Below, piece after piece: positions 15,665-53,528 of a DNA stretch of 64,000 nt (its first letter is position 1; each line of letters begins with the position of its first letter). A program made the position numbers and the translations under genes. The stretch covers positions 1-64,000 of the forward strand of contig CASDPF010000010.1 in the NCBI GenBank assembly GCA_949282215.1, read 5' to 3'. Below the pieces are notes generated by a model, which worked only from the letters and a program-made list of their open reading frames with translations, was not told where the DNA came from and did no database searches. This DNA is from an uncultured bacterium (lineage in GTDB: Bacteria > Cyanobacteriota > Vampirovibrionia > Gastranaerophilales > Gastranaerophilaceae).

Positions 15665-16493
15665 TTTTTAATTCCTCGGAAAGTTTTCCAAAATCTTCTA
15701 TAGAAAGCTTTTCTCCACGTGTATTCTCATCAAGCCCTAATTTTGACATTGCATTTTGAATATTTTCTTTTGAAAATCCTCCGCTAAGAAGGCAATTTTT
15801 AATATTTTTTCTTCTTTGTGAAAATGCTGCTTTAACAGTTTTTCTAAAATGGGTGTAGTCAGATAGTTCAAGTTTTGGTTTTTCTCTTACCAAGAGTTTC
15901 ACAAGGGCAGAATTGACTTTTGGTGCAGGGAAAAATGAACGTCTTCCGACAAGTTCTTTAATTTCTACATCCGCCCAAAATTGTGATAAGATTGTCAAAA
16001 GTCCATACTGCTTGGATGGAGATTTTTCTGTCGCAACCATTCTTCTTGCAACCTCCTCTTGCACCATCAAAAGTATATCCGTTATTTTATTACGGTTTTT
16101 GTTGTCTAAGTCGTCAATCTCGCCCAGTAAATGTGCGATAATTGGACTTGTAATATAGTATGGAATATTTGCTACAATTTTTACTTTGCCATCGCATAAT
16201 TCAGATAAATCTGTTTTTAGGATATCTTGATGAATAATTTTTAAATTAGGGGCATTTAATTTTTCCAATTCCTTGATAGCTTCTTCGTCAAGTTCAATAG
16301 CTATGACCTGTTTGGCATGTTTTATAAGTTGTTCTGTGACAAAGCCCACTCCGGGACCTATTTCAATTACGGTATCTTCAGGAGAAATTTTTGCATAGTC
16401 AATAATGTTAGCTATTACTTCTCCATTAATAAGGAAGTTTTGTCCGAGTCTTTTTTTTGTTTTAAAATATTTTGCTCTGCTGTAGTAGTCCAT
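15654..16493 (-). CDS. rsmA: 16S rRNA adenine dimethyltransferase (KsgA)
   Basis: 279 residues. KKRLGQNFLINGEV near 12 and VIEIGPGVGFVTEQL near 42 (SAM-binding motif I), then ANIPYYITSPII near 110 is the NIPY catalytic motif IV. The C-terminal helical domain with FSQRRKNIKNCL is complete. The enzyme dimethylates two adjacent adenines (A1518/A1519 in E. coli) in helix 45 of 16S rRNA late in 30S assembly. It is upstream of ispE, with overlap of 11 bp; the 93 bp up to the divergent glutamate-cysteine ligase gene should hold promoters for both. Confidence 0.93.
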   Translation of the reverse strand: MDYYSRAKYFKTKKRLGQNFLINGEVIANIIDYAKISPEDTVIEIGPGVGFVTEQLIKHAKQVIAIELDEEAIKELEKLNAPNLKIIHQDILKTDLSELCDGKVKIVANIPYYITSPIIAHLLGEIDDLDNKNRNKITDILLMVQEEVARRMVATEKSPSKQYGLLTILSQFWADVEIKELVGRRSFFPAPKVNSALVKLLVREKPKLELSDYTHFRKTVKAAFSQRRKNIKNCLLSGGFSKENIQNAMSKLGLDENTRGEKLSIEDFGKLSEELKNGN

Positions 16494-39649: not shown

Positions 39650-39696
<47 letters not shown>

Positions 39697-39723
<27 letters not shown>

Positions 39724-41181
39724 AATATTTTCAAAAACAGCCTTTTTTGCAATGTAGCAGAAGGGCTTTTTATATGTCCAGCTTAATTTTCCGTCTTTTA
39801 GTGTACAGTTCGAAAGCAGAGTTTTGAGTAGATTAACCTTGTTTTCATCTGAAACCTGTAAATACTTGCTATACATATCATTTAGAAGTTCGAGGATAGA
39901 ATTTACATCATCCATGAATTTTTGATTTGTTTCATCAAAAGCTTCAATTCTTGCTCTAATAGAGATTAACCGTTGTTGTCGGAGTTCGTTTTCAGCTTGC
40001 CACTGGTCTATTGTAATTAAGCCATCAAGTTTGTCTTGATAAGTTGCGTGAATTTCTTTTCTGACTTTTTCCGCTTCAGCGTTTAGTCTTTTCAGGCTTT
40101 CTTGTTGAAAATTCTGTTCCTGATTATTAAGTTCGATAATTGCGTCTAATAGTTTTTTACGGCAGGCATTGTCTAATTGAACAGCCTTTACAGCGTTGCC
40201 AAGTTGGTCTAACAGTTCCTTTTCATTGTAATATTTATGATTTTTACATTTGTCTTTTCCATAAGCCCAGGTGCAATGATAATAAATATATTTTTGCTTT
40301 TTTATTTCTGCAACAATAGAACATCCGCAATCTCCGCAGGTGATAAAATTGCCTAATAGAAAGGTATGCTTTCTGTAAAGCGGTTTGTTATCTTTACCGA
40401 ATGCCCGTTGTACTTGAAGGAAAAGATTGTTAGACACAAGAGGAGTATGAATACCCTGCATTAATTGCCCTCTGAATCTGAACATGCCTGTATAAAACGG
40501 GTTTTTTAATATATCTTCCAAAGCTCCTGGTGAAATTTTAGGAGAGTAGGAACGGTAGAAGAATCCTTCTTTAACAAGCTGGTTAGCAGTGTCTTTAATA
40601 GAAATGTTTCCGCGTGAATATATTTCAAAAGCTCTTTTAATAAATGGTGCGGTCGCGGGATTAATTTCAATGATACTTTTGCCGCGTTCATTTCTTACAT
40701 TTTTGTAACCATAAGGTGCTCGGTTCGGGAAAATTCCTTCCTCGGCTTTTTCTTTTAGCCCTTTTCTAGTTTCTTCACGCAAGTTATCTATGAAATTTTT
40801 TGCCATTAAGACTTTTAAACCGTGAATAAATTTTTGGTGAGATGATGCTTCATCATTAATAATTTCGTGTTCTTTAACAAAATGTAGTTCAAATTTTCCT
40901 TCATCAATAAGCCCGTAGTCTGACGGGTTACGATAAAGTCTGTCGGTTTTTTCAACAAGGATGGTATTTACTTCTTTTGAGGCTTTAAGATATTTCACCA
41001 TAGCATTAAATTCTTTTCGTCCAGATTTTTTAGCGGTTTCAGCTTCGGTGAACTCTTTTACTATTTGAATATTATTATGACGAGCATAATCTTTGAGTAG
41101 TTTAATCTGTGCCGGTATAGAGAATCCCTGCCGTTCCTGTTCATCGGATGAAACTCTGGCATATATTACAGCTTTTTTCAA
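39697..41181 (-). CDS. Large serine recombinase (integrase)
   Basis: 494 residues. The resolvase domain starts KKAVIYARVSSDEQERQGFS, with the nucleophilic serine near residue 10 and VEKTDRLYRNPSDY near 88. A recombinase domain follows (NRAPYGYKN near 150, then KNPFYTGMFRFRGQ), then a zinc ribbon (ITCGDCGC and HCTWAYGKDKCKNH near 280-310) and a long coiled coil at about 345-430, as in phage and ICE integrases. Its last codons (YPGCDSNA and stop) are supplied by the tRNA-Arg 3' end, showing integration there. It should catalyse insertion and excision of the 39.7-51.5 kb region. Confidence 0.92.
39722..39802. repeat. Recombinase 3' end repeated at 53416
   Basis: About 82 bases starting TAAATATTTT and including AACAGCC and AGAAGGGCTTTTTATATGTCC recur in the same orientation at 53416-53497 with about eight mismatches. 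This copy is the intact C-terminal coding part of the serine recombinase. Confidence 0.85.
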
Positions 41182-41284
41182 ATTTTTTACTCCTTTTTGT
41201 TTATAATATAATTTTACATAAAATTTGTATCTGCATAAATATAATATTGCAGGAATTTCATGAAGTTAAGTAAAGGATTTAAAC

Positions 41285-42277
41285 ATGCCGGACACCTTGA
41301 AAAGAATTGATGACCGAACATTTTTTATTATGTATGCACTGACGAAACAGCCGTGGCTTTATGTACCGATACTTTCAATACTTTATGGAGAAATGCCATT
41401 TAAAGAAATTTGTATAGAAGTTGACAATCTGAAAAAATTTGGGATTGAAACAATGCTGACATATCTTCCAAGCGAAAATATCGATATTAAAACACTGGAG
41501 AAAATTAAAGAATATGAAATTGAGATTAAAGAATTTCTAAATGGAGAAAGGGGTGTGCAACAAACCTCTATTGTTGCAAGAAAATTAGTACCTTATGCTG
41601 CTAAAGCTCAATTTACCTGCAGGTCACCGGAAAGATTACAAGAAAAAATTGATGAATATTTTACAAATTCAGAATCAAGCCGGAAATTATACTTTTACAA
41701 CTATGAAAAACATATAAAAATCTTTAAGAAGTTAAAAGAATGGGCGATTACCGGCATGACAGCACCGTATAAAATAGGTTTTGACAGATTCTCTCAATTT
41801 ATTCAGGAAGAGAATATAAGTAAATATGCATTTTTTCATTTTTTATATCAGCTTGAAAAGTCAGGAAGTATTAAAATATCAGAATTATCCGTTCAGGGAG
41901 GCTTCCCGCTTATAATATTTGAAACTTTGAATCAAAAAATCCATGAACCTGTGAAAAAAGAAGCACCGTCGGGTAGAGAATTAGCCAATTTTATAACTCT
42001 TCATTTATATGAAAACGGAATAATTGATACTGCACAAGAAGGGAAATTCTTCCGGTGCGATAATATAGAAGTCAGTTTATTTGAGATGTTTTTTAAACAG
42101 CCATATAAGAATTATTCATACAGCTCGATTGAATCTAGGATAGGTGTTGACAAAGAGATGCCTAAAAGAATTTCAAAAGCACGAACAAAACTTCAAAGAA
42201 TTTTGAAAAATAATAACAAAAAATATTTTATCAATAATCAAAAAAATAAAACCTACAAATTTACAGAGCCTGATTAG
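41285..42277 (+). CDS. Hypothetical protein of mobile element, possible winged-helix regulator
   Basis: 330 residues, divergent from the recombinase (103 bp). I do not recognise a named family. The N-terminus (DRTFFIMYALTKQPWLYVPI) and middle are helical; the C-terminal 90 residues resemble a winged-helix effector domain: GREL-x-NFITLHLYENG, then SIESRIGVDKEMPKRISKARTKLQRIL, ending with a wing-like YFINNQKNKTYKF. That layout suggests DNA binding, for example control of excision or replication. An AAGGATTT SD is ten bases upstream. A clear terminator follows. Confidence 0.5.
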   Translation: MPDTLKRIDDRTFFIMYALTKQPWLYVPILSILYGEMPFKEICIEVDNLKKFGIETMLTYLPSENIDIKTLEKIKEYEIEIKEFLNGERGVQQTSIVARKLVPYAAKAQFTCRSPERLQEKIDEYFTNSESSRKLYFYNYEKHIKIFKKLKEWAITGMTAPYKIGFDRFSQFIQEENISKYAFFHFLYQLEKSGSIKISELSVQGGFPLIIFETLNQKIHEPVKKEAPSGRELANFITLHLYENGIIDTAQEGKFFRCDNIEVSLFEMFFKQPYKNYSYSSIESRIGVDKEMPKRISKARTKLQRILKNNNKKYFINNQKNKTYKFTEPD

Positions 42278-42307
42278 AAAGTAATTAAAAATCTTCACAC
42301 TAAAATA

Positions 42308-42337
42308 AAATCTTCACTTTTTGTGAAGATTTTTTAT
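42308..42337 (+). terminator. Terminator after 41285-42277
   Basis: AAAATCTTCAC and GTGAAGATTTT form an 11 bp stem with a five-base T loop, followed by TTATTT. It lies 31 bp after the stop codon. Confidence 0.88.
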
Positions 42338-42435
42338 TTAGCAACCACCCCGATTTGTTTGATGTGACGGAAAAAATATTCACAAATTTTCTGCAAATCA
42401 TTTTTAGATTTTTAAGTGAACCATACACTTAAAGT

Positions 42436-42588
42436 ATGTATAAAAATTTTCAAAATGAAAAAGACTTCTGGCAGAAGTACACAGACCACGACCTCTCGGA
42501 AGAAGATATTTTCGAGATTAACTATAATCTGCAAAATTTTGCCAAGACTCTTTCGATAATTTACAAAGAAATACAAGAAAAGGAGTAA
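42436..42588 (+). CDS. Small ORF of 50 residues ahead of the primase operon
   Basis: ATG 42436 to TAA 42588 gives a hydrophilic, acidic and aromatic helix-rich peptide (NEKDFWQKYTDHDLSEEDIF, later FAKTLSIIYKEIQEKE). The stop region provides the AAGGAG SD of the next gene, so the spacing is that of a real operon, and codon use is like its neighbours. It has no good SD of its own. Function unknown; possibly an accessory of the replication module. Confidence 0.5.
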   Translation: MYKNFQNEKDFWQKYTDHDLSEEDIFEINYNLQNFAKTLSIIYKEIQEKE

Positions 42589-42590
42589 AG

Positions 42591-42806
42591 ATGTCTGAAA
42601 AACAAAATAAAAAATCACAGCCATATTTAATTTTTGAGGATATGAGCAGCGGAAAAATGATAGTTTTACCCGCATATGATTTTGATGACGCAACTATTGA
42701 ATGGATTGAAAATAATCCTGATAGGTTTAACGAAGTCCTTCAAATTGCACAACAACAGTATAAGCAAAAGAATGCTGAGAAAGAAAATGATGTAATAGAC
42801 TTATGA
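42591..42806 (+). CDS. Small hypothetical protein of the replication operon
   Basis: 71 residues after AAGGAG. LIFEDMSSGKMIVLPAYDFDD suggests a small beta structure, followed by an acidic helix ending KENDVIDL. No known family. It is placed between the 50-residue ORF and the primase-helicase gene, 16 bp before the latter, so the three are probably one operon. Confidence 0.6.
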   Translation: MSEKQNKKSQPYLIFEDMSSGKMIVLPAYDFDDATIEWIENNPDRFNEVLQIAQQQYKQKNAEKENDVIDL

Positions 42807-42822
42807 AAAATGGAGGTTTTTA

Positions 42823-45138
42823 ATGAATACTTTTGAAACTGACAATTTAATTAAAATGTACAGAGCCGGTTATAAGCTTGTACCGGTTCCTTATAAAAGT
42901 AAACATCCGATTTTAAAAGATTGGAGAAACGCTTATTTTAGAACGGAAGTGGCCTTAAGAGAATATCTTCACGCAACGCCTAAAACCAATATGGCTATTA
43001 TACCTCTTGACGACTGGATTGTTTTAGATATTGACCGGCATAATGGTGATGAGGATTACAGTGAAATTCAAAAATATTTTATTCCGACATTTACAGTTAA
43101 AAGTGGCGGAAACGGGCAACATTACTACTACAAATGTCCGAAAAATTTTAATCAAAAGCTAAGACGAAAGATAAAAGGTTATAATACTATAGAAATACAA
43201 ACATCTTCAATGTGTCTTATTGCCCCCGGAAGTACTCATCCAAACGGAAATAAGTATGTTATTGCAGAGGGAAGTATAGATGAGATAGTAGAAATTCCGC
43301 CAATATTGTTAAAGCTGTGTATCGATGATGGAACGGCTGACGAAAACCCATCTCGAGGATTTTTGACATCAACAACAACCTTTATTCCGACTGGTTCGCG
43401 TAATATAACATTAACATCTGTCGCGGGCAAGTTTTTTGCAATGGGTTTAAACAAAGAGCAGGTACTTACTTTAATAAAAAAAGTGAATGAGGAACAATGT
43501 GACGTTCCTTTACCTGAAAAAGAAATCGACGCTATAGTTAACAGTGTTAGCCGTTACGATAATTATAATCAAAAAATACTGCAGAATAAAAATAAGATGA
43601 ATATTACAGAGCAAATAGACAGTATCCTCAATTTCCCAAAAATAAAACCAGAGGTTAAGAAACGACGGATATGTGTTACAATTATTAAATATCTTATTAA
43701 TGAAGGATACGTTTTTTATAAGGCAAACGATAATTTTTATATATTAGATAGCAAAACGAAAAAATTAATCTGGTTGGATAGAGGTAATAGAAATTTTAAA
43801 AGACTTATATATTCTTGTGGTATAAATCCAGCGAGTGATATGTATAATCATATATTTGAGGCATTGTGTGCACACTGTGATATTAATGGTGATGAAACAG
43901 AAGTATATAAGTTTGCACATGTTGATACTATAAATTTTAATCTATATATTAAAACAGGTATTAAAATACTTAAAATTAGCCCAGATAGTGTGCAACTTTG
44001 TGATAATGGTACGGATAAGGTGATGTTTGCAGATGATGTACTTGTTGAATCTTTTGAATATATTCCGAATCTTTCAGAGGATTATATGGATAAATATTTA
44101 TTTAACAAGCCTAATTATAATGCAACATCTTATCTTAGCCCTGAGGAATTAAAGACGCTATGTAAGATATATTTCTTAGCAATGTTTATGCCGGACTTTC
44201 TTAGAACTAAACCAATAATTTCAACTGTAGGTGCTAAAGGAAGCGGCAAAACTTCCCTGTTACGTATGATGATTAAATGTCTTTATGGCAGGTTGCCTGA
44301 TGTGTTGTCGATGACAAATAAGTTAGAAGATTTAGATACTATTGCCGCGAAACGGCATGTCGTTTTTATTGATAATCTTGACACATACAAGGATACTATT
44401 AATGACAAATTAGCAACCTATGCAACAGGCATAACCAATGAAAAGCGAAGGTTATATTCAAATGGAGAGGTATATCGTGAAAAAATTGATGCCTTTATTG
44501 GAATTTCAACAAGAAATCCTGTTTTTCGCAGGGATGATGTTGCACAGAGAGTTTTGATAATTTATCTTGATACGCTAAAAGAATATAAAAATGAAGCAGC
44601 AATCATTGAACCAATAATAAAGCACCGGAATGAAATACTATCACAGGTTATTGATATGCTTCAAATAATCTTGAAAAGAATGAAAGAGGAGGGAAGTGAT
44701 GTTGAATACACCTCAGCGTTACGTATGTCAGACTTCGCACATTTTACGGCATTATACTTCGGAAATAAAGAGCAAGCGGAAACTCTGCTCAAAAAAGTTT
44801 CTAAAAATCAAAAAGCTCTTGCTACAGAGGGAGATATTCTATTTACATATCTTACAAAATTTGTGTCCGAGGTACAGGATGATGGTTGGTATAATGCCAA
44901 AACTCTTTACCGAAAACTTGATGGACTTGCAGCTGTGGAAGTAGTTGATACTTTATTGAAAAACGATTTTAGAGCAAAATATGATAATCCAGTCAGCCTT
45001 GCAAAACGGCTCCAGAATATTAAAGAAGATGTTGCAGAGTTTATAAAAATAGATACTCAGAAACGCCGTGGGAATATAACATTTTACCGAATCACAGCCG
45101 GAGAAAACTTTAAAGACTGGGAATTTTCTTTACTGTAA
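42823..45138 (+). CDS. Primase-polymerase/helicase replication protein
   Basis: 771 residues with a GGAGG SD. The N-terminal prim-pol domain (AEP type, about 10-165) has LDIDRHNGDED near 67 with the DxD catalytic pair and SGGNGQHYYYK near 90. A PriCT-like segment (GSRNITLTSVAGKFFAMGLN) lies at about 190-250. The C-terminal part is an ATPase/helicase with Walker A GAKGSGKTSLLRM near 469 and Walker B HVVFIDNLD near 510, then RDDVAQRVL-like arginine-finger region. Such bifunctional proteins start replication of plasmids, phages and mobile elements by themselves, which suggests that this element can replicate after excision. Confidence 0.83.
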   Translation: MNTFETDNLIKMYRAGYKLVPVPYKSKHPILKDWRNAYFRTEVALREYLHATPKTNMAIIPLDDWIVLDIDRHNGDEDYSEIQKYFIPTFTVKSGGNGQHYYYKCPKNFNQKLRRKIKGYNTIEIQTSSMCLIAPGSTHPNGNKYVIAEGSIDEIVEIPPILLKLCIDDGTADENPSRGFLTSTTTFIPTGSRNITLTSVAGKFFAMGLNKEQVLTLIKKVNEEQCDVPLPEKEIDAIVNSVSRYDNYNQKILQNKNKMNITEQIDSILNFPKIKPEVKKRRICVTIIKYLINEGYVFYKANDNFYILDSKTKKLIWLDRGNRNFKRLIYSCGINPASDMYNHIFEALCAHCDINGDETEVYKFAHVDTINFNLYIKTGIKILKISPDSVQLCDNGTDKVMFADDVLVESFEYIPNLSEDYMDKYLFNKPNYNATSYLSPEELKTLCKIYFLAMFMPDFLRTKPIISTVGAKGSGKTSLLRMMIKCLYGRLPDVLSMTNKLEDLDTIAAKRHVVFIDNLDTYKDTINDKLATYATGITNEKRRLYSNGEVYREKIDAFIGISTRNPVFRRDDVAQRVLIIYLDTLKEYKNEAAIIEPIIKHRNEILSQVIDMLQIILKRMKEEGSDVEYTSALRMSDFAHFTALYFGNKEQAETLLKKVSKNQKALATEGDILFTYLTKFVSEVQDDGWYNAKTLYRKLDGLAAVEVVDTLLKNDFRAKYDNPVSLAKRLQNIKEDVAEFIKIDTQKRRGNITFYRITAGENFKDWEFSLL

Positions 45139-45549
45139 ATACAAAAATGAGTGAGGTGGTTAAGGTTTTTAGCTGCCTTTTTTCTTTAAATCTTTTTTTT
45201 TACACATATTATTTTTATTTTAAGATGTATAAAATACCTTAACCACCCTAATCAGAGTGCATACTTACAAATTCCTGAACAACAAACATACCCTTGCTTT
45301 GTTCGTTCCCTATCCCAAACCCACCCCGCCACCCTTTAGGGCGGAAGAGTGTATTGTAATTTTTTTTTATTTATAATCACAAGTTGGGGAAAAGTCTCGG
45401 TGAATAAAAATATCTAACTTTCTTATACCTGTCCCTGTCTCAATAATTTATTAACACATATTATTATAAAAACAATCAATAAGCGTTTAGATGTTTTATA
45501 TGTATGAATTATAACTAATTCACAGTAAAGCCTTTTTAATCCGGTATTT
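45139..45549. other. Intergenic region of the element with a GC-rich hairpin
   Basis: No ORF is convincing here. A G+C-rich hairpin near 45325-45345 (CCG-CCA-CCCT-TT-AGGG-CGG) stands out in very AT-rich surroundings and lies downstream of the replication gene; it could be a nick site, origin or terminator. CCTTAACCACCCTAA-type C-rich blocks (45173 and 45238, complementary GTGGTTAAGG and CCTTAACCAC) form a further distant inverted pair. Confidence 0.4.
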
Positions 45550-45722
45550 ACAGGCATAAAACCCTCATTGATTCTGACAACTCATGGCTTATATTAGCAG
45601 ACAAATTCAACTATTCAAGGCACGTTATACCTGCCGGAGGTTCCGCCTTGAATAGTTTTTAATTGCCTGCTTTTGCTGTAGCACATAAGTTTTACAGAAT
45701 AAAATGAGGGTTTTATGCCTGT
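45550..45722. repeat. 173 bp nested palindrome
   Basis: The outer arms are a perfect 20 bp inverted repeat: ACAGGCATAAAACCCTCATT (45550-45569) and its complement at 45703-45722. The pairing continues with ATTCTG / CAGAAT. An inner perfect 13 bp pair, AACTATTCAAGGC (45609-45621) and GCCTTGAATAGTT (45645-45657), flanks a CCGG-containing loop. The right outer arm contains the GAGGG SD and ATG of the next gene. It could be an origin or transfer structure, a folded RNA masking translation, a miniature element, or an invertible segment. Confidence 0.85.
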
Positions 45723-45987
45723 AGAGAAAAGTTTTAATTTGTTACGTTATGTTTATGGTGAATTATTTTTAAATTCATTAAACAAAACGGCTGCTAGTAT
45801 CACTGTTGAGAAGTGGAAGGCCTATGCTTGGCGAAATATTTTACTTTGGCTGAATGAACGTCAGCATATAATGTGTATGCAAATAGAATATGTTAGTCCG
45901 ACACACCAACGTATCAGTTATATGTTTAACGACAGTAACTTATTATATCCCCAATACATATTATATTTAAAGCGATTAGCGGAATAG
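45715..45987 (+). CDS. Small hypothetical protein of mobile element
   Basis: 90 residues, starting inside the right arm of the nested palindrome (TGAGGG SD, ATG 45715). Aromatic and basic, with VEKWKAYAWRNILLWLNERQ as a long amphipathic helix and a terminal YPQYILYLKRLAE. No cysteine pattern, no signal peptide. I do not recognise it. The overlap of its start with the palindrome suggests translational control by RNA folding. Confidence 0.6.
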   Translation: MPVEKSFNLLRYVYGELFLNSLNKTAASITVEKWKAYAWRNILLWLNERQHIMCMQIEYVSPTHQRISYMFNDSNLLYPQYILYLKRLAE

Positions 45988-46120
45988 GCATACTTACATT
46001 GGAATGTCAAATTACTTTTTAAGCCGTGCTTATTTTATTCGGGTCTATTTTACTAATGGAATATTTTTCTACACAGTTTAATCAGCTTTTAAAAGTTCAC
46101 AGAACAGAAAGGATTATATT

Positions 46121-46933
46121 ATGAAACAAGCTTATAAAGAAAAAATTACTAACCAGATTATTAAAGCACTTGAACAAGATAAAATTCCTTGGGTTTCTCC
46201 ATTTGAACAACAACTTATCTCCATTAATTACCTGACCAAAAGACCATACAATGGTGTAAATCTATTGTCATTGTGGGTTACAGGTATGGTGCGGGGCTAT
46301 ACCGGAAATTACTGGATAGGGTTTAGGCAGGCTAATCAGATTGGTGGAAGGGTTAGAAAAGGTGAAAAGGGGACACCTATAACTGTATGTTGTCCGTTAA
46401 GGATTGAAAAAACAGAGGATGATAAAGATGTTCAAAGATATTATTATAAAACTGATTATGTATTTAATCTATATTCCCAGATTGAGGGTGTAGATTTTGA
46501 TACAGAATTGCATGCGTACAGACCGATAAAAGAATTGGATAACCTGGTAATCCATACCGGCATGAGGGTAAGATATCAGGGTGAGCGAGCTTATTATTCA
46601 GCTAAAGGCGATTTTATAAATATGCCATTTAAATCAAAATTTAAAACACAGACTGCATATTACCAAACGTTAGCACATGAGCTAATCCATTCTACAATGA
46701 AAGACTGCAGATGTAACTGGGAGAATGATAATAGAGCATTAGAAGAATTAATTGCAGAAATAGGAGCTGCATATTTGTTTGCAGAGTATGGAGTAAAGGC
46801 TGACTTGCATACCGCCGCTTATATACAAAGCTGGATAAAAGAATTAAAAAACGATACAGATTATATTTTTAAGGCTTCAAAATCTGCAAAATACGCTGTA
46901 AAGTTTCTGCTTAGTTCTAACGTAAAGATTTAA
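46121..46933 (+). CDS. ArdC-like antirestriction protein
   Basis: 270 residues after an AAAGGA SD. The N-terminal ArdC ssDNA-binding domain (DUF1738) is visible: KITNQIIKALEQDKIPWVSPF, RPYNGVNLLSLW, RVRKGEKGTPI and DYVFNLYSQIEGVD. The C-terminal half is a zincin-like metallopeptidase with HELIHST near residue 188 and a downstream ELIAEIGAAYL glutamate helix. ArdC proteins travel with transferred single-stranded DNA on conjugative elements and protect it from restriction. It overlaps the convergent XRE gene by 17 bp. It supports a conjugative or mobilisable history of the region. Confidence 0.85.
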   Translation: MKQAYKEKITNQIIKALEQDKIPWVSPFEQQLISINYLTKRPYNGVNLLSLWVTGMVRGYTGNYWIGFRQANQIGGRVRKGEKGTPITVCCPLRIEKTEDDKDVQRYYYKTDYVFNLYSQIEGVDFDTELHAYRPIKELDNLVIHTGMRVRYQGERAYYSAKGDFINMPFKSKFKTQTAYYQTLAHELIHSTMKDCRCNWENDNRALEELIAEIGAAYLFAEYGVKADLHTAAYIQSWIKELKNDTDYIFKASKSAKYAVKFLLSSNVKI

Positions 46934-47234
46934 CCATTCTATATACAGCGGTTAAATCTTCCGGAGTAAGATACTCAATGTTTGTTTTGATATAATCTGC
47001 CATATTTTGTTGATTCATATCCAAATGTTGAAAGTCGAAAAGAGCTTGTAAATCAATATTTAAAGCTGTTGCAATTTCTAATAAAGCCTTAGACGGAAAT
47101 GTGTCGCCGCATTCAATATGACTTAAATTTCTCTGGTCAATATTAGCAAGCTCAGCAAGCTGCTGTTGAGAAATTCCCTGAGCTTTACGAAGTTCTTTAA
47201 TTCGTTTACCTAAAAGTTTTTTAATATCATTCAT
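46917..47234 (-). CDS. XRE-family transcriptional regulator
   Basis: 105 residues. The HTH is complete: GKRIKELRKAQGISQQQLAELANIDQRNLSHIECGDTFPS, with LEIATALNIDLQALF as the last helix. The C-terminal tail (DYIKTNIEYLTPEDLTAVYRMVKSL) resembles that of the XRE protein at 49719. It is divergent from the 47386 exported-protein gene; the 150 bp between contains AT-rich inverted stretches likely to be operator sites. Probably a repressor of the element's cargo or transfer genes. Confidence 0.85.
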   Translation of the reverse strand: MNDIKKLLGKRIKELRKAQGISQQQLAELANIDQRNLSHIECGDTFPSKALLEIATALNIDLQALFDFQHLDMNQQNMADYIKTNIEYLTPEDLTAVYRMVKSLR

Positions 47235-47385
47235 AACCTTACCTCAAGAATAACTGTTCTTTTCCATTATTTGAACGATATTATTTGAATAAATATTGAC
47301 ATTAAGACAATTTATATAGTAATTTACAATATATATTGGTATAATATTTAATTTTTAGAAAGTTTATTATGTAGAAAGGACATGT

Positions 47386-47673
47386 ATGAAAATTTTTACT
47401 ATTGTTATTTCGTTATTAGTTTTTTCTGTTTCTCCATTATTGGCCGCACAGATTAATTATGATAGTTACCCATCGGGTTTTAATGGTGAAAGGACTGGAA
47501 CTGTATGGCTTAATCATGAAAAATATGATGTTACTGAAAGACCTACTTTTGGAGGACAAACTGAAGTGGAAATAAAAAATTTCAATAATACATTTAGAGG
47601 CACTGTTGATTCTTTCGGATATGGAACTTTAAGAGATTTTAACGGTAATACAGTAAAAATAAAACCGTATTAA
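47386..47673 (+). CDS. Small exported protein
   Basis: 95 residues with a clear signal peptide (MKIFTIVISLLVFSVSPLLA, cleavage before AQINYD). The mature part is beta-rich, with YPSGFNGERTGTVWLNHEKY, GGQTEVEIKNFNNTFRGT and a final GYGTLRDFNGNTVKIKPY. No cysteine or known domain. AGAAAGGA lies eight bases before the ATG. It heads a likely operon with two exported TPR proteins. Confidence 0.7.
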   Translation: MKIFTIVISLLVFSVSPLLAAQINYDSYPSGFNGERTGTVWLNHEKYDVTERPTFGGQTEVEIKNFNNTFRGTVDSFGYGTLRDFNGNTVKIKPY

Positions 47674-47690
47674 ATGAAAGGTAGGATATT

Positions 47691-48479
47691 TTGAAAAGAA
47701 AATTTTGTGTGACTTTATTAATAATTTGTGGTTTGGGCTTTCAATTTTTTTTAATATCTAGTGCTGGAAATGATACTATTAATATATATGATTTGAATGA
47801 GCAGCAGACTGCAATACAAGCAATAAATGAGTTATATTCCGGAAATCCTGAAAAAGCGTATATTTTAATTAATGAAGCTATTAAAGTAGAGCCAAATGCT
47901 CCCCAGCTATATAACACAAGAGCTCTAGTCCGAGGTGCATTACATGATTATTACGGAGCTTTTGACGATTATGCTCATGCAATATTCTTAGCTACGGATT
48001 ATCCTACACCATATTATAATAGGGCTAATCTATTAAGAGATTTAGGGCAGTATCAAAAAGCACTTTCTGATTATAATGCCGCAATAGCTTTTAATTTTAA
48101 AGGTGGTGGTGCTTATATTAATAGAGGGTATGTAAAACTGGAGCAATTACAGGATATTGAAGGGGCTTTTTCTGATTTTGATACTGCAATTAAAAGCGGT
48201 GATGAAAGTGAAGGGGCGTATTATGGTCGAGCCGTGTGCAATTACCATAAAGGGTATTATGAGAAAACAATAAGTGACGCAACTAAAGCTATTCTTTTAA
48301 ATTATAAAAATCCGGATGCTTATCTCATACGTGGTCAGGCAAAGATAAAATTAAAGCAAATACAATCAGGTTTACAGGATTTGCAGTGGGCAGAGCAGCA
48401 GTACAATCAGCTATTAGATACTAGTGGTGCTAAAAAAGCGAAAGACTTGTATATTTATTATTCTAGAAAAGGTTCTTAA
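47691..48479 (+). CDS. Exported tetratricopeptide-repeat protein
   Basis: 262 residues from TTG 47691 (AGGTAGGA SD). A signal peptide or N-terminal anchor covers residues 1-27. Five or more TPR-like units follow: NPEKAYILINEAIKVEPNAPQLYNTRALVRG, DYYGAFDDYAHAIFLATDYPTPYYNRANL, QYQKALSDYNAAI, DIEGAFSDFDTAI and YYEKTISDATKAIL. TPR proteins bind partner proteins. It lies 17 bp after the small exported-protein gene and 20 bp before another TPR protein, so the three are probably co-expressed cell-envelope proteins carried by the element. Confidence 0.78.
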   Translation: MKRKFCVTLLIICGLGFQFFLISSAGNDTINIYDLNEQQTAIQAINELYSGNPEKAYILINEAIKVEPNAPQLYNTRALVRGALHDYYGAFDDYAHAIFLATDYPTPYYNRANLLRDLGQYQKALSDYNAAIAFNFKGGGAYINRGYVKLEQLQDIEGAFSDFDTAIKSGDESEGAYYGRAVCNYHKGYYEKTISDATKAILLNYKNPDAYLIRGQAKIKLKQIQSGLQDLQWAEQQYNQLLDTSGAKKAKDLYIYYSRKGS

Positions 48480-48499
48480 TCGTGGTAAGTAGGTGTTAT

Positions 48500-48871
48500 A
48501 TGAAAAAATCATTACTTTGTTTTTTATTTGTTCTTATTTTTAATATTACATTTAGTTATGCCGGAACAGTTAAGGATTTACCTAAAAATAATCCGCTGCG
48601 TTATTATGCAGAGAAAGCTAGTGCTGCATACTATTCAAAGAATTATTATGTCGCAATAGAAAATTATTCCAAAGCTTTAGAGATACATAAAGTTCCGGAC
48701 GGGTATCTTTATAGAGGATATTCCTATTTATATACGAAGCAATATGAGTTAGCCAAAAAAGACTTTATCACGGTAATAGCACTATGTCAGTACTATAATG
48801 ATGAGCGTTGTAAAGAATATTCATATTATGCCGCTGATTTGTTAAACCTGTTAGATAATATTAAGTACTAA
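48500..48871 (+). CDS. Small exported TPR protein
   Basis: About 123 residues from ATG 48500; the frame is open to 48482 but the signal peptide MKKSLLCFLFVLIFNITFSYA begins at 48500. One or two TPR units follow (SKNYYVAIENYSKALEIHKVP and KQYELAKKDFITVIALCQ). It resembles a shortened version of the upstream TPR protein and may arise from the same ancestor. Periplasmic or envelope location is likely. Its partner and role are unknown. Confidence 0.7.
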   Translation: MKKSLLCFLFVLIFNITFSYAGTVKDLPKNNPLRYYAEKASAAYYSKNYYVAIENYSKALEIHKVPDGYLYRGYSYLYTKQYELAKKDFITVIALCQYYNDERCKEYSYYAADLLNLLDNIKY

Positions 48872-48989
48872 CTTGTGTTATCCGACTGGCATGGGGATTT
48901 TTATAAGGATATATAATATCTAAAATACATGTGCTACATGAATTTGAACCTGTGCATACCTACATTTATAATAAGGATTTTTGCAAACA

Positions 48990-49514
48990 ATGAACAGGCA
49001 TATAAGAAAATATTATGAACAATTAATCTCCAAAGAAGAATCGATTACTATAATAGGAAGTCAGGTGGAATTGTTAAAAGTTCTTGCTAAGGGTTATACC
49101 CTAAAAGTTACGGCAGAAAAGCTAAACACTTCATATAACAACATACAAAAACGAACCCAGCTTTTATATAAAAAGTTCAATGTGAATAATAGACAGAACT
49201 TAATCTCTGTGGCATTGAAATTTAATATAATTCCATATTCCGCGGTTACAAACAAATTTCGTGAGCGTTTCTGTAAAAAATCAAGGCTATACGAATATGC
49301 AGAACCTGTCCTAAAAGAACCCCTTACAGAAATGGAAATTGAATACTTAAAGTTATCGTCACAGGGTAAACGCAAGAATGAGATAATAGAAGAACTTAAT
49401 CTTTTGAATATGAATTACTGTAATTATGTTTTATCGCAGGTATGCCGTAAACTAAATTCCAAAAATATAACGCAGGCGGTATCAAATGCGTTTCGTTTAA
49501 ATATTATTGAGTAA
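48990..49514 (+). CDS. Protein with two LuxR-type helix-turn-helix domains
   Basis: 174 residues from ATG 48990 (AAGGA 12 bases upstream; a TTG at 48981 is the alternative). Two HTH units of the LuxR/GerE type are arranged in tandem: ELLKVLAKGYTLKVTAEKLN with NIQKRTQLLYKKFNVNNRQNL, and EIEYLKLSSQGKRKNEIIEEL with NYVLSQVCRKLNSKNITQAV. There is no receiver or ligand-binding domain. A single chain with two DNA-binding units could bind a half-site pair as a monomer. It follows the TPR genes after 118 bp and may control them. Confidence 0.65.
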   Translation: MNRHIRKYYEQLISKEESITIIGSQVELLKVLAKGYTLKVTAEKLNTSYNNIQKRTQLLYKKFNVNNRQNLISVALKFNIIPYSAVTNKFRERFCKKSRLYEYAEPVLKEPLTEMEIEYLKLSSQGKRKNEIIEELNLLNMNYCNYVLSQVCRKLNSKNITQAVSNAFRLNIIE

Positions 49515-49651
49515 GTTTTTATGAAGTTTAAAATATTACTATATTTTAGTGGAAGATAAACTTCTAAAACCATAATCCTGATTCAATTTTACGGAAATAT
49601 TATTTAAAAACTATAGACAAAAATTGTCCCTAATATTTTATATACAAGTTT

Positions 49652-49675
49652 AATTTGTATTAATATATACAAATT
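49652..49675. promoter_or_regulatory. AT-rich palindrome upstream of XRE gene, candidate operator
   Basis: AATTTGTAT and ATACAAATT are perfect nine-base arms with a six-base centre, 44 bp before the XRE start at 49719. A second TACAA half-site lies nearby at about 49641. Autoregulation by the XRE protein is a reasonable guess. Confidence 0.45.
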
Positions 49676-49718
49676 GTATTATATAGAAAGAACCTGAAAA
49701 CTAATATATTCTTTTATT

Positions 49719-50042
49719 ATGGATGAATTTTTAGAGAAGTTTGGAGAAAAAGTCAAAGGATATAGGGAGTTATGTGGTTATAGCCAGGAGAGATTAGCGG
49801 AATTATCTGAGGTTTCTACTAATACAATCAATTCTATTGAGAACGGAAAGACTTTTTTAACATACCAGACTTTAAAAAATATATGTTCTGCTCTTAATGT
49901 AACAGCACCGGATTTATTTAATATAGAGGTCAAAAACTATAGTGTTGAGGATAAACTGTTACATCAAATAATTGTCCGAGCAAAATCCCTAACCCCTGCA
50001 CAACAAAAACAAGTTATTGAAATCCTAAAAACATTTGAGTAA
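49719..50042 (+). CDS. XRE-family transcriptional regulator
   Basis: 107 residues. HTH: FGEKVKGYRELCGYSQERLAELSEVSTNTINSIENGKTF, then YQTLKNICSALNVTAPDLF. The tail (LLHQIIVRAKSLTPAQQKQVIEILKTF) is like that of the XRE protein at 46917-47234, though the proteins are otherwise different. It lies eight bases before a membrane-protein gene with which it is probably co-transcribed. A 24 bp palindrome precedes it. Confidence 0.85.
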   Translation: MDEFLEKFGEKVKGYRELCGYSQERLAELSEVSTNTINSIENGKTFLTYQTLKNICSALNVTAPDLFNIEVKNYSVEDKLLHQIIVRAKSLTPAQQKQVIEILKTFE

Positions 50043-50050
50043 TATATTAT

Positions 50051-50773
50051 ATGCTATCAGAACTCAATCAATTTGCAAAAGATTATGAATATTTAATAAA
50101 AGCCATTGGAACGTTACTACCATTTTTAGTTACATTATTTATGGCTATTATAGCTTATCAGCAATGGCTTATTAATAAACGAAATGAGTATATTTCATAC
50201 TCCGAAAAAATGCTTAACAAAATCTATAAGCCATTAAAAAGTTGTACAGAAGAATTTAATAAAATACTGTTGAATAGTGAAGATAAGGTTAATCTTATAA
50301 ACAGTGTCTTGAAATATGTAAATGTAATAAAAGATATAATAAAAGAAAATTCTTATTTAATTTGTCATTCCGATTATGAAATGATTCTATGTTCTTTAAA
50401 ACACTTTATAAACAATCTGGAACAATTAAAAAATCAGGATAAGAATATAAAGAAAAGATTGATAATTGTTTATAAACTCTTATGTTCTGGAGCAAATTCG
50501 TTTTTTGCCTTAAGAGAGTTAGACAGTTATAGATTTGATAGAAATTTAACTATATATGAAGTTATATTTAATTTTATAATAGCTATTTATAGATTTTTTG
50601 TTCCTAAGTTTATACAAAAATTTATAAGAAAAATTCTAATCCCATTGATTTTATTGCTTTATATTATATATACTTTAATAAAATTACTTCCACGATTTTT
50701 ATTTCAAATCTTAAAAATTATATTTAAGATGTCTCTTTTAAATATTAAGAAACTAGTTAAAAAAAATATTTAA
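50051..50773 (+). CDS. Membrane protein with coiled cytoplasmic region
   Basis: 240 residues. One membrane segment near residues 18-40 (TLLPFLVTLFMAIIAYQQWL), a long hydrophilic helical middle (about 45-165) with LKSCTEEFNKILLNSEDKVN, and a second strongly hydrophobic region near 195-225 with repeated Ile/Leu, followed by a lysine-rich end. No enzyme motif. It follows an XRE regulator directly (eight bases), a layout seen for exclusion, immunity or membrane-toxin functions on mobile elements, but the role is not proven. Confidence 0.55.
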   Translation: MLSELNQFAKDYEYLIKAIGTLLPFLVTLFMAIIAYQQWLINKRNEYISYSEKMLNKIYKPLKSCTEEFNKILLNSEDKVNLINSVLKYVNVIKDIIKENSYLICHSDYEMILCSLKHFINNLEQLKNQDKNIKKRLIIVYKLLCSGANSFFALRELDSYRFDRNLTIYEVIFNFIIAIYRFFVPKFIQKFIRKILIPLILLLYIIYTLIKLLPRFLFQILKIIFKMSLLNIKKLVKKNI

Positions 50774-50808
50774 TGGACTATGCCGGACAAAAGAATATAA
50801 AATAGAGT

Positions 50809-51090
50809 TTACATAAACTTCTTTTCATCTCTATCCATAGCTTGTTTTAGGGTGGATTTAATGTATGTTTGATAAGGCATACCAAGTTTTTGTGCGATTT
50901 TTTTTGCTCTTTTAATCTCAAATTCGGACCAGCGGAAATTAACGTTGGCAGTTTGTTTCATTTCCGCAATATCAGAATCAGCCTGAGCTTCAAAATCCTG
51001 AATAAGTTGTTCTTCTGCTGGTGACGGAGTGTAGTCACAAACTTCTGCCATGCCAACAGTAGGAATATGTTCAATTCTATTTTTATCCAT
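50809..51090 (-). CDS. CopG-family (ribbon-helix-helix) antitoxin
   Basis: 93 residues. The C-terminal half has VNFRWSEFEIKRAKKIAQKLGMPYQTYIKSTLKQAM, the beta strand and two helices of the CopG antitoxin family; the N-terminus (HIPTVGMAEVCDYTPSPAEE) should wrap the toxin. An AGGAGG SD is present upstream of ATG 51090, inside the toxin gene end (8 bp overlap). Order toxin-antitoxin is the reverse of the classic order. The dimer is likely to repress the shared promoter. Confidence 0.78.
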   Translation of the reverse strand: MDKNRIEHIPTVGMAEVCDYTPSPAEEQLIQDFEAQADSDIAEMKQTANVNFRWSEFEIKRAKKIAQKLGMPYQTYIKSTLKQAMDRDEKKFM

Positions 51091-51373
51091 CTTGACCTCC
51101 TTGGTGAAAAGCTGTTATTAACAATATATCTTGTTCTTTAAGGTAAGTATAAAAAACAGTTATATCTAAACTGCTGCTGTATAATTCATATCGTTTGCGT
51201 TCTTCATTGTAGATTTCAGATGTTTTAGAAAAGTAAGCCGCGATAGCCTGTTGCGGGGTAACTAAATGTCTGATGTACATATGATATTCAAACTCATTTG
51301 TCAAAGGGTTTAAATCCATTTTTACAACGAATTTTTGTCCTTTAATTTTGAACATTTTATATTTGTACTGCAT
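51083..51373 (-). CDS. Putative toxin of CopG-type toxin-antitoxin pair
   Basis: About 96 residues from ATG 51373; the open frame reaches 51424 but TTGACA - 16 bp - TAATAA on the minus strand lies within that stretch, so a leaderless start at 51373 (or ATG 51355) is likely. The sequence KFVVKMDLNPLTNEFEYHMYIRHLVTPQQAI, then RYELYSSSLDITVFYTYLKEQDILLITAF, is a compact alpha/beta protein of the kind paired with CopG antitoxins; an RNase fold of the RelE/BrnT type is possible. It overlaps the antitoxin by 8 bp. Confidence 0.62.
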   Translation of the reverse strand: MQYKYKMFKIKGQKFVVKMDLNPLTNEFEYHMYIRHLVTPQQAIAAYFSKTSEIYNEERKRYELYSSSLDITVFYTYLKEQDILLITAFHQGGQDG

Positions 51374-51464
51374 ATTAATATTATTACATATTGTGTTGTA
51401 AATGTCAATACATTGTAAAGACATTCATATAAGTGAGATATTTTTAAGCAACATCTTTAAGTAT

Positions 51465-51492
51465 CGCCCAAGTTCGAATCTTGCGTGCCAGA
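51465..51492 (+). other. tRNA-like 3' fragment, candidate far attachment site
   Basis: CCCAAGTTCGAATCTTGCGTGCCAG-like sequence forms a T-arm (CAAG, loop TTCGAAT, CTTG) and continues to a CCAGAGGGTA end. It shares GTTCGAATC with the tRNA-Arg T-arm (39703-39711) and a CCA-GGGTA end. No 5' half of a tRNA is present. It may be the right-hand attachment remnant of the element or a relic of another tRNA. Confidence 0.4.
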
Positions 51493-51507
51493 GGGTAGAC
51501 TTAAAAA

Positions 51508-51534
51508 AGACTAGTTTAAACTAGTCTTTTTTTA
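51508..51534. terminator. Palindromic terminator
   Basis: AAGACTAGTTT and AAACTAGTCTT form an 11 bp perfect palindrome flanked by an A run and TTTTTTTATT. It follows the tRNA-like fragment and precedes the methyltransferase gene. Confidence 0.9.
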
Positions 51535-51627
51535 TTTACTATATTCAGGCAATATATAATAATTTATTACTAATTAATAAGTTAATCTAACATATTTATG
51601 CTAATATTTATAATAGGACTTTAATTT

Positions 51628-52635
51628 ATGCAAAAAGCAATAAAAAAATTAAAATTTATAGATTTTTGCTCAGGTATTGGTGGAGGACGACTAGGGCTTG
51701 AATTATTAGGCTTGATTTGTGTTGCACATAGTGAAATTAATATTGATTCTGACTATACTTACCAAAAATTTTTTAATGATAATAAAAATATAGGAGATTT
51801 AACTCTTCTTGATTATGACAGTATTCCTGAATGTGATATATTAATAGCAGGCTTTCCCTGTCAAACATTCTCAATTGTTGGGAAAAGGGCTGGCTTTGAG
51901 GATAAACGAGGACAAATAATATATTATTTAAAGGATATACTAAAACACAAAAGCATACCTTATTTTATACTTGAAAATGTCAAAGGTTTAGTTAATCATA
52001 ATAGAGGGCAAACATTAAATTCTATTATCAAGTTGTTAAATCAAGCAGGATATAATATATCATATAAAGTTTTAAATAGCATTGATTATGGTGTTCCTCA
52101 ATTAAGAGAACGGATTTATATTGTAGGGATAAGGAAAGATTTATATACGAAACCTTTTGAATTTCCAACACCTGTTAAGCATAAAAGTATAAAGGATTTT
52201 TTGTTATCAAATAATAATGACATATTAGATTTAAATAATCCAACATTCCAAAAGTATTTGTCTAATAAATACAATAAGGATAGAATTAATATTAATGAAC
52301 TTTTAAAACAAGATTATACAATTATTGATACAAGGCAATCTGATTTAAGAGTTTATATTGATAAATGTCCAACATTAAGAACAGGGCGACATGGAATATT
52401 GTATGTGCGTAATAAAAAATTACATAAATTATCAGGCCTAGAATCTTTGTTATTACAGGGTTTTCCTAAGGAATATGTTATGAAAGCAATTGACATAACA
52501 AATTCTAAATTATTGGCTCAAACAGGTAATGCAATGACGGTTAATGTAATAAGTGCAATAGGAAAAAATTTGCTTAATTATGTAGAAGGGAATTCTATAG
52601 ATGAATTTAGTACAAAGAGGCTCACAAACTGCTAG
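51628..52635 (+). CDS. DNA (cytosine-5) methyltransferase of a type II R-M system
   Basis: 335 residues. Motif I DFCSGIGGGRLGLEL, motif IV IAGFPCQTFSIVGKRAGFEDKRGQ with the catalytic cysteine near residue 79, motif VI FILENVKGLVNH, motif VIII QLRERIYIVGI and motif X QTGNAMTVNVISAIG are all in the usual order. The target recognition region (about 195-265) is short. It should methylate the same site as the endonuclease encoded next, with which it overlaps by 35 bp. If that enzyme is HinP1I-like, the site is GCGC. No C protein gene is visible. Confidence 0.92.
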   Translation: MQKAIKKLKFIDFCSGIGGGRLGLELLGLICVAHSEINIDSDYTYQKFFNDNKNIGDLTLLDYDSIPECDILIAGFPCQTFSIVGKRAGFEDKRGQIIYYLKDILKHKSIPYFILENVKGLVNHNRGQTLNSIIKLLNQAGYNISYKVLNSIDYGVPQLRERIYIVGIRKDLYTKPFEFPTPVKHKSIKDFLLSNNNDILDLNNPTFQKYLSNKYNKDRININELLKQDYTIIDTRQSDLRVYIDKCPTLRTGRHGILYVRNKKLHKLSGLESLLLQGFPKEYVMKAIDITNSKLLAQTGNAMTVNVISAIGKNLLNYVEGNSIDEFSTKRLTNC

Positions 52636-53344
52636 AGATGGATTTCATAACGAGCAAAATATATGTGACAAGTTTAACAATTGGCAATTTGACAATGAAG
52701 CTCAGCAATGGCTGACCATTATGCAATATGATTTAAGTAAAATTGAATACGTAAGAGCAGTTGTTTTACATGGTTATAAAGCTGATGTCAATGTACAGGT
52801 GCAAATAAGATTAAAATCCGCAATTGATTCGGAAAATATACAGGTAAAATTAGTATCAAATCGAAAAGGGTTTAATCAAGTAGATAAACGTTGGTTATTG
52901 CACTATAAAGAAATGTGGAATATGCCTGATAATATTTATAGTTTGTTAAAATATTATACTGGAGAAGACAAGCCATATAAAACAGGTGTAAGAGATTCTC
53001 GTAGAATGTTTATGGATGAATTCACAAATGAAGAACAAGAGTTATTATTGGATTGGTTTTCTAATAATAAAACATTAATATTAAGTGATATTATTAAGGG
53101 GAGAGGTCAATTCAGTGCGGAATGGATTTTAGTGGTTCAAAAGATAAATAATAATGCTCGTTGGATGTTAGTTAATATTAATCAAGCATTACAACATTAT
53201 TCTTCAGGAGATGTAAAAATTAGTCCAAAAGGCTCAATGCATATAGGACATGTGACTATGCAAAGAAAAGGTGGAGATGGTGGTCGAAATACTTCTAAAA
53301 TGTTGCAATTCAAATTAGATCCTACACAATTATTTGATATATAA
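52601..53344 (+). CDS. HinP1I-like type II restriction endonuclease
   Basis: 247 residues, the same length as R.HinP1I as I remember it, with matching start (MNLVQRGSQTARDGFHNE) and end (MLQFKLDPTQLFDI), and internal blocks AVVLHGYKADVNVQV, IQVKLVSNRKGFNQVDKRW, RRMFMDEFTNEEQ and GRGQFSAEWILVVQKINNNARW. HinP1I is a monomeric enzyme cutting G/CGC with a D-x-n-QxK catalytic centre; here D near 62 and QVK near 81-83 are present. The start overlaps the methyltransferase end, so the two are co-translated. Recognition of GCGC is a prediction from homology recalled from memory. Confidence 0.85.
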   Translation: MNLVQRGSQTARDGFHNEQNICDKFNNWQFDNEAQQWLTIMQYDLSKIEYVRAVVLHGYKADVNVQVQIRLKSAIDSENIQVKLVSNRKGFNQVDKRWLLHYKEMWNMPDNIYSLLKYYTGEDKPYKTGVRDSRRMFMDEFTNEEQELLLDWFSNNKTLILSDIIKGRGQFSAEWILVVQKINNNARWMLVNINQALQHYSSGDVKISPKGSMHIGHVTMQRKGGDGGRNTSKMLQFKLDPTQLFDI

Positions 53345-53415
53345 ATCTAAATAAAAAATCCCCAGATTTGATTACGCCACATTTTCAACCAACCAAGTTC
53401 TGAACTCGACTCTAT

Positions 53416-53528
53416 TAAATATTTTGAGAAACAGCCTTTTTGGCAATGTAACAGAAGGGCTTTTTATATGTCCAATTTAATTTTTCGTCTTTTAATGCTT
53501 ATTTTGAGATAGAATTTTAACAGATTTA
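53416..53528 (-). pseudogene. Remnant of a serine recombinase 3' end
   Basis: Read on the minus strand the sequence encodes KLNWTYKKPFCYIAKKAV followed by a different ending and two stop codons, closely matching the C-terminus of the recombinase at 39697 (KLSWTYKKPFCYIAKKAV). Similarity extends upstream to about 53528 but with a two-base deletion that breaks the frame. The rest of the gene is gone. It is a scar of a related element or a duplicated end. The remaining gap from 53345 to 53653 holds nothing else I recognise. Confidence 0.8.

Follow-up and report, generated by a model that had tools for sequence, protein, structure and literature searches.

Phage satellites carry an integrase and replication genes, have no structural genes and require a helper phage. 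Frpo/ssi promoters of conjugative plasmids are long stem-loops that precede early-expressed genes in the leading region: −35 and −10 boxes are reconstituted in a stem of single-strand DNA. Hairpins also act on phage mRNAs. For example, a hairpin buries the ribosome-binding site in the early transcripts of T4 gene e and I-TevI, and the 5′ strand of that hairpin is missing from the later ones (PMC3014915).

The locus described here lies in the window, the whole 64-kb stretch of bacterial DNA that was analysed, and consists of a long palindrome over the start of a small gene, orf90. By gene content alone, the ∼14 kb element that carries it resembles phage satellites (PICI, P4-like): it sits at a tRNA gene, encodes an integrase, a Prim-Pol protein and regulators, and gave no phage structural match among the subset of its ORFs that was scanned. 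Unlike in PICI or P4-like satellites, the integrase is a large serine recombinase. As in the T4 gene e and I-TevI leaders (PMC3014915), where a phage gene is concerned, a hairpin in longer transcripts would conceal a ribosome-binding site. The stems here differ from those leaders in their 60–125 Watson-Crick pairs, in their conservation by covariation and in occurring in satellite-like elements too, and a sigma-70-like scan found no counterpart of the internal late promoter. Like Frpo/ssi, the locus has a long, imperfect hairpin immediately 5′ of small genes, antirestriction functions among them, with a comparable score and contact bias and a template strand computed to be the more stable one, a bias that flank composition accounts for in group A; the differences are the lack of conjugation genes in the families tested, the occurrence in prophages and the covering of both Shine-Dalgarno sequence (SD) and ATG. 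Literature searches returned no hairpin–orf90 module of this kind.

A nested palindrome over the start of orf90

The long, imperfect palindrome spans 45549–45723, as delimited by repeats, folding, a stem scan and covariation. Its left outer arm (45549–45569, plus strand) is a perfect 21-nt complement of the right outer arm (45703–45723, plus strand), which contains an SD-like GAGGG (45706–45710) and the ATG of orf90 (45715–45717). The inner arms (45609–45621 and 45645–45657) are likewise perfect over 13 nt each, with 23 nt between them. The initial annotation, made from the letters of the window, had proposed a nested palindrome at 45550–45722 with perfect 20 bp outer arms, an independent 13 bp inner stem and a right arm holding the SD and ATG of the next gene. 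The palindrome is confirmed by the repeat search, the fold and the stem scan, and the repeat search adds one pair at the outer end. The inner stem with its conserved apical loop occupies 45609–45657 (plus strand; repeat search and alignment of the related group-A hairpins described below). On the plus strand, this part reads ..AAGGCAC..CCTGCCGGAGGTNCCGCC.. in six of the seven group-A rows; the remaining row, L017, has diverged with its pairing kept.

Folded as RNA, 45550–45722 reaches −76.6 kcal/mol, compared with −34.7 ± 4.1 for shuffled sequences (z −10.3), and none of 200 shuffles folded as well. When the entire window was scanned for stems with Watson-Crick-only scoring, the palindrome ranked first with a score of 39. 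The runner-up scored 25, and the same scan gave hairpin maxima of 21–25 in eight simulated first-order Markov sequences of 64 kb. Further copies, a prospect raised by the initial annotation, did not turn up: a search with the arm at ≤3 mismatches found no second copy in the window, and the whole palindrome is single-copy in its own 2.19-Mb genome, where the sole second match was its own complement. Only tRNAs exceeded the gathering score in an Rfam 15 scan of the window, and the best weak matches near the hairpin were microRNA models, far under their cut-off.

The integrated element and the phage loci

The element probably extends from about 39724 to 53430, as judged from a right end that resembles the left. 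Its order, over ∼39.7–53.4 kb, begins with the large serine recombinase (39697–41181, minus strand), which runs into a tRNA-Arg gene (39650–39723), followed by orf330, a Prim-Pol/PriCT_1 replication protein (42823–45138, plus strand; domain search), the hairpin, orf90 (45715–45987, plus strand; 90 aa) and an ArdC-type antirestriction gene (46121–46933, plus strand; domain search). Regulators come next, and then a cytosine methylase gene and a 247-aa ORF. The Prim-Pol gene is the replicase region that had been noted directly upstream. At the right end, 53397–53526 resembles the left-end sequence, including the 3′ part of the integrase, as would be expected if another, related element had once occupied the site. 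Two further gene pairs lie in this half of the element. On the minus strand, 50809–51424 encodes a CopG-like antitoxin (under the Pfam cut-off) behind a 113-aa ORF, a unit ∼90% identical in L016 and L020. The cytosine-5 DNA methylase gene and the overlapping 247-aa ORF that follows it (51628–53344), the latter with no PHROG or NCBIfam match, are possibly a restriction-modification pair.

Two sequence features adjoin the hairpin. A C-rich block (45308–45344), conserved in group A, L018 included, lies ∼200 nt upstream; its minus strand has five G-runs that could form a G-quadruplex, and it is a possible origin or transfer signal. In addition, the word GCATACTTACA occurs at 45259–45269 and 45988–45998, on either side of the hairpin–orf90 unit, and similar words stand at one or both flanking positions in relatives.

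A transfer origin had been among the initial proposals for the palindrome. This candidate is not supported, and neither is a place in the leading region of a conjugatively transferred element: the T4SS coupling protein (PF02534) and MobA/MobL relaxase (PF03389) were found in none of the 11 module-bearing genomes, and PF03432 relaxase was absent from the window's own genome, the one genome checked for it. We infer that the element resembles a phage satellite more than a conjugative element.

A second set of orf90 loci lies in prophages of tailed phages. The one scanned for domains, L022, encodes an SU10-type portal, an S24 repressor, YqaJ and RecT, and the related phage loci have the same genes within the stretches compared. 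Here, the hairpin stands between the late genes and the orf90 homologue. When 20 ORFs of the window element were compared with the phage loci, orf90 was the only protein in common. In one of the phages (L024, upstream of 2520), the apical loop is ∼100 nt larger than in a close phage relative, and the arms are paired. An N4-type hairpin promoter for a virion RNA polymerase was considered and rejected, as no giant polymerase was seen in the G108 prophage flanks compared; the longest ORF there (1271 aa) is separated from the prophage by an ORF resembling, by eye, the phage's tyrosine integrase.

One gene family, three hairpin sequences

Fifteen distinct orf90-family loci were compared (the window, L016–L024 and L034–L038), leaving aside L025 and L026 as near copies of L022. 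A long hairpin lies immediately 5′ of orf90 at 14 of them. The exception, L037, encodes the most distant protein (19% identity) and has no long hairpin upstream. The 14 hairpins fall into three groups whose arm sequences are unrelated to one another. Group A comprises the window and L016–L021, which have the conserved apical loop in common. Group B comprises the prophage loci L022–L024, L035, L036 and L038, with longer hairpins of another sequence. The third hairpin, at −128 kcal/mol over a 350-nt stretch, belongs to an element (L034/L109, genome G207) from a different family of the order. By eye, its ORFs run serine-recombinase-like, unknown, primase-like and helicase-like, followed by the hairpin and the orf90 homologue.

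By DNA search, the hairpin occurs in 6 of 191 genomes of the family, the window's own among them. The orf90 gene was found in 8 of 191 genomes of the family, in 12 of 286 genomes of the order (13 places) and in 8 of 386 of the phylum, these samples overlapping. GTDB contigs gave nine orf90 loci, seven of them named Candidatus Gastranaerophilales bacterium, and IMG/VR gave two. When the group-A core was searched for with a covariance model, 7 of 383 genomes of the family matched, always immediately 5′ of orf90 and in one orientation; an eighth, weak match was the complement of the copy in G182. Plasmid and phage collections searched with the hairpin region and orf90 gave no match. In viral contigs, the group-A loop motif occurred 57 times in 55 stretches, three times with GGCAC within the preceding 25 bases, and none of these matches resembled the hairpin by eye. 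In G050 (L007), an ORF of a different kind contains a 23-nt match to the arm but no such hairpin; this match was discarded as probably due to chance.

The pairing is conserved

The group-A consensus has 51 pairs, 20 of which show pair-preserving changes on both sides. None of 500 shuffles equalled the alignment in any of five covariation measures, and sliding the partner by 1–3 columns left just 2–8 both-sided pairs. Seven of the 20 fall in helices 1 and 2 (two and five, respectively), which contain the SD and start-codon columns. In group B, both sides have changed in 24 of 87 pairs, with an unfavourable covariation term (+5.6), and the SD, AGAAAG, is paired in the consensus. A comparison of the closely related phages L023 and L024 shows one double change that preserves a pair, two single changes that restore pairing and nine changes that destroy a Watson-Crick pair. 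The conservation of pairing and the compensatory changes that the initial annotation had named as a check are thus present in group A. The hairpin is a real, conserved regulatory structure that has no Rfam family and is linked to a small gene family of mobile elements, both satellite-like elements and phages, in the gut bacteria of the order Gastranaerophilales. Because the fold is kept while its letters change, it is probably a switch for orf90.

Access to the start site and the orf90 protein

Each of the 11 non-redundant loci has a Watson-Crick stem, of 60–125 pairs, that spans the SD and ATG, although stem alignments of this kind can lengthen by chance at the outermost end. (Pooled stem counts omit L020 and L021, near copies of L019, and L024, whose stretch is cut short; the shuffles for these alignments were mononucleotide, 10 per locus.) In the window, the computed unpaired probability of SD and ATG is 0.00 in the full leader, and that of the SD is 0.52 in a 60-nt leader. 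Across the 11 loci, the SD is almost fully hidden at six (≤0.08) and partly hidden at the other five (0.26–0.52). Pairing of the start site in a longer transcript thus holds for the window and only in part for the family, and the SD region is equally hidden in two of six other genes of the window. Promoter scans, all for the sigma-70 type, found nothing above chance upstream of orf90 or in the right arm; the right arms of the 11 loci have no sigma-70-like site, with 1.9 expected.

The orf90 protein has no match in Pfam, PHROG or NCBIfam. Its predicted structure is confident (pLDDT 91.7), with elements in the order H-E-H-E-E-H, and retrieved nothing at E ≤ 0.001 among PDB and BFVD structures; a profile search of PDB sequences had a best E of 0.054. 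VIA-align rows with Z of 5.0–6.3 are a mixture of ribosomal S8, Alba and winged-helix proteins, so no family is assigned. A nucleic-acid-binding role with putative autogenous control is plausible.

Strand bias and competing explanations

The strongest competitor to control at the RNA level is a hairpin of DNA. The minus (template) strand, single-stranded or extruded, would fold into a duplex-like hairpin at which RNA polymerase starts orf90–ardC transcription, or a primer, in the manner of Frpo. We regard this as the less probable mechanism, yet the strand bias keeps a template-strand promoter or primer site a live reading. The minus strand is the more stable one at all 14 hairpin loci with both RNA and DNA parameters, and also in the alignments A6, A7 and A8. 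Counted with a scoring that gives G·U no advantage, the plus strands of the 11 non-redundant hairpins make 945 Watson-Crick, 23 G·T and 51 A·C contacts; C·T likewise outnumbers A·G. In group B the bias opposes flank composition (unpaired C:G 73:44, flanks 273:342, p 0.0004), but in group A it equals flank composition (p 0.64), and there A·C against G·T is by itself not significant (p 0.16); the loci in all these tests are related. Fourteen other hairpins of the window lean no single way (nine plus, five minus). The F plasmid (L107) served as a yardstick. Two of its hairpins, one 5′ of ssb and one 5′ of the ORF at 16033, were taken from their position to be Frpo1 and Frpo2 (PMC9849209); they score 30 and 33 with the same contact bias. 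A third long hairpin lies before an F antirestriction gene (L107:8481–8719), and the template strand is the better folder in all three. The antirestriction gene next to orf90 also recalls plasmid leading regions (PMC11541004). Against a DNA promoter stand the missing conjugation genes described above and the residence of group B in tailed-phage prophages. No −35 and −10 boxes were found, by a scan that misses the F hairpins too. Finally, the F hairpins stop 37–47 nt before the ATG, whereas the hairpins here cover it, a difference that favours control of orf90 translation. A wider version of the DNA reading, in which hairpin and orf90 form a mobile module among satellite-like elements and tailed phages and transcription or priming starts at the template-strand hairpin itself, is unlikely.

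The remaining explanations fare worse. A replication signal, acting in second-strand initiation or within the element's origin, was one of the initial suggestions and fits the position of the Prim-Pol gene upstream of the hairpin in the window, L016, L017 and L019–L021, the primase and helicase genes of L109 and the adjoining conserved C-rich block. That association breaks in L018, in which the same hairpin precedes orf90 and ArdC with no Prim-Pol gene in front, and in the phages, where late genes lie upstream; nor would an origin have to coincide with the start codon of the same gene family in all groups. We therefore consider a replication signal improbable. The bias of stability toward the minus strand would also suit an antisense or structured non-coding RNA that controls orf90 from that strand, but minus-strand promoter-like sites within orf90 number seven across 11 loci, with 9.9 expected, and no Rfam family matches; the odds on this explanation are poorer still. 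A miniature transposable element or an invertible switch, which had likewise been proposed, would account for the 21 bp terminal inverted repeats. The palindrome is nevertheless single-copy, shows no flanking target duplication and stands directly before orf90 in one orientation at seven of seven group-A loci, which leaves this idea barely credible.

A proposed control leader for orf90

Translational control by an RNA fold is the option we favour among those first proposed for the palindrome, as the SD and start of one gene family are covered in three groups of unrelated sequence. In its specific form, the palindrome would be a control leader conserved in structure that hides the orf90 SD. We advance this tentatively as the most likely mechanism. 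If transcription began upstream, the mRNA would have its SD and start codon, both in the right arm, locked in a very long hairpin, and orf90 would therefore be silent by default. The lock could open through a transcript that starts within the hairpin, through cutting by an RNase, or through the binding or release of the hairpin by a trans-acting factor, for which the orf90 protein is a plausible candidate. Such control would probably extend to the orf90–ardC pair; the ArdC-type gene follows orf90 in six of six group-A relatives.

The case for this leader draws on the hairpin at 14 of 15 loci, the stem over SD and ATG, the covariation and the T4 precedent. Several observations weigh against it. 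G·T contacts, tolerable in an RNA leader, are rarer than A·C, and the minus strand is the stabler one; a stem of 60–125 pairs far exceeds the length needed for hiding an SD. The five partly hidden SDs, the two other window genes with an equally hidden SD region and the lack of a promoter above chance count on the same side, as do the changes between L023 and L024, which mostly lose pairs. The action as RNA, the repression of translation and the identity of the releasing factor are put forward as parts of a model, next to a hairpin, a covariation and a fixed position on the orf90 start that are directly observed.

The locus offers a clean natural case of a very long fold that compensatory changes preserve even as the underlying sequence turns over. 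In phages and satellite-like elements alike, which have no other detected protein in common, the fold always covers the start of a single gene family. If the DNA reading proved true, it would be a promoter of single-strand or cruciform type in a setting other than conjugation, and three unrelated hairpin sequences would embody it. The choice between an RNA lock and a single-strand DNA promoter becomes a decidable question, and the previously uncharacterised orf90 family gains a testable role.
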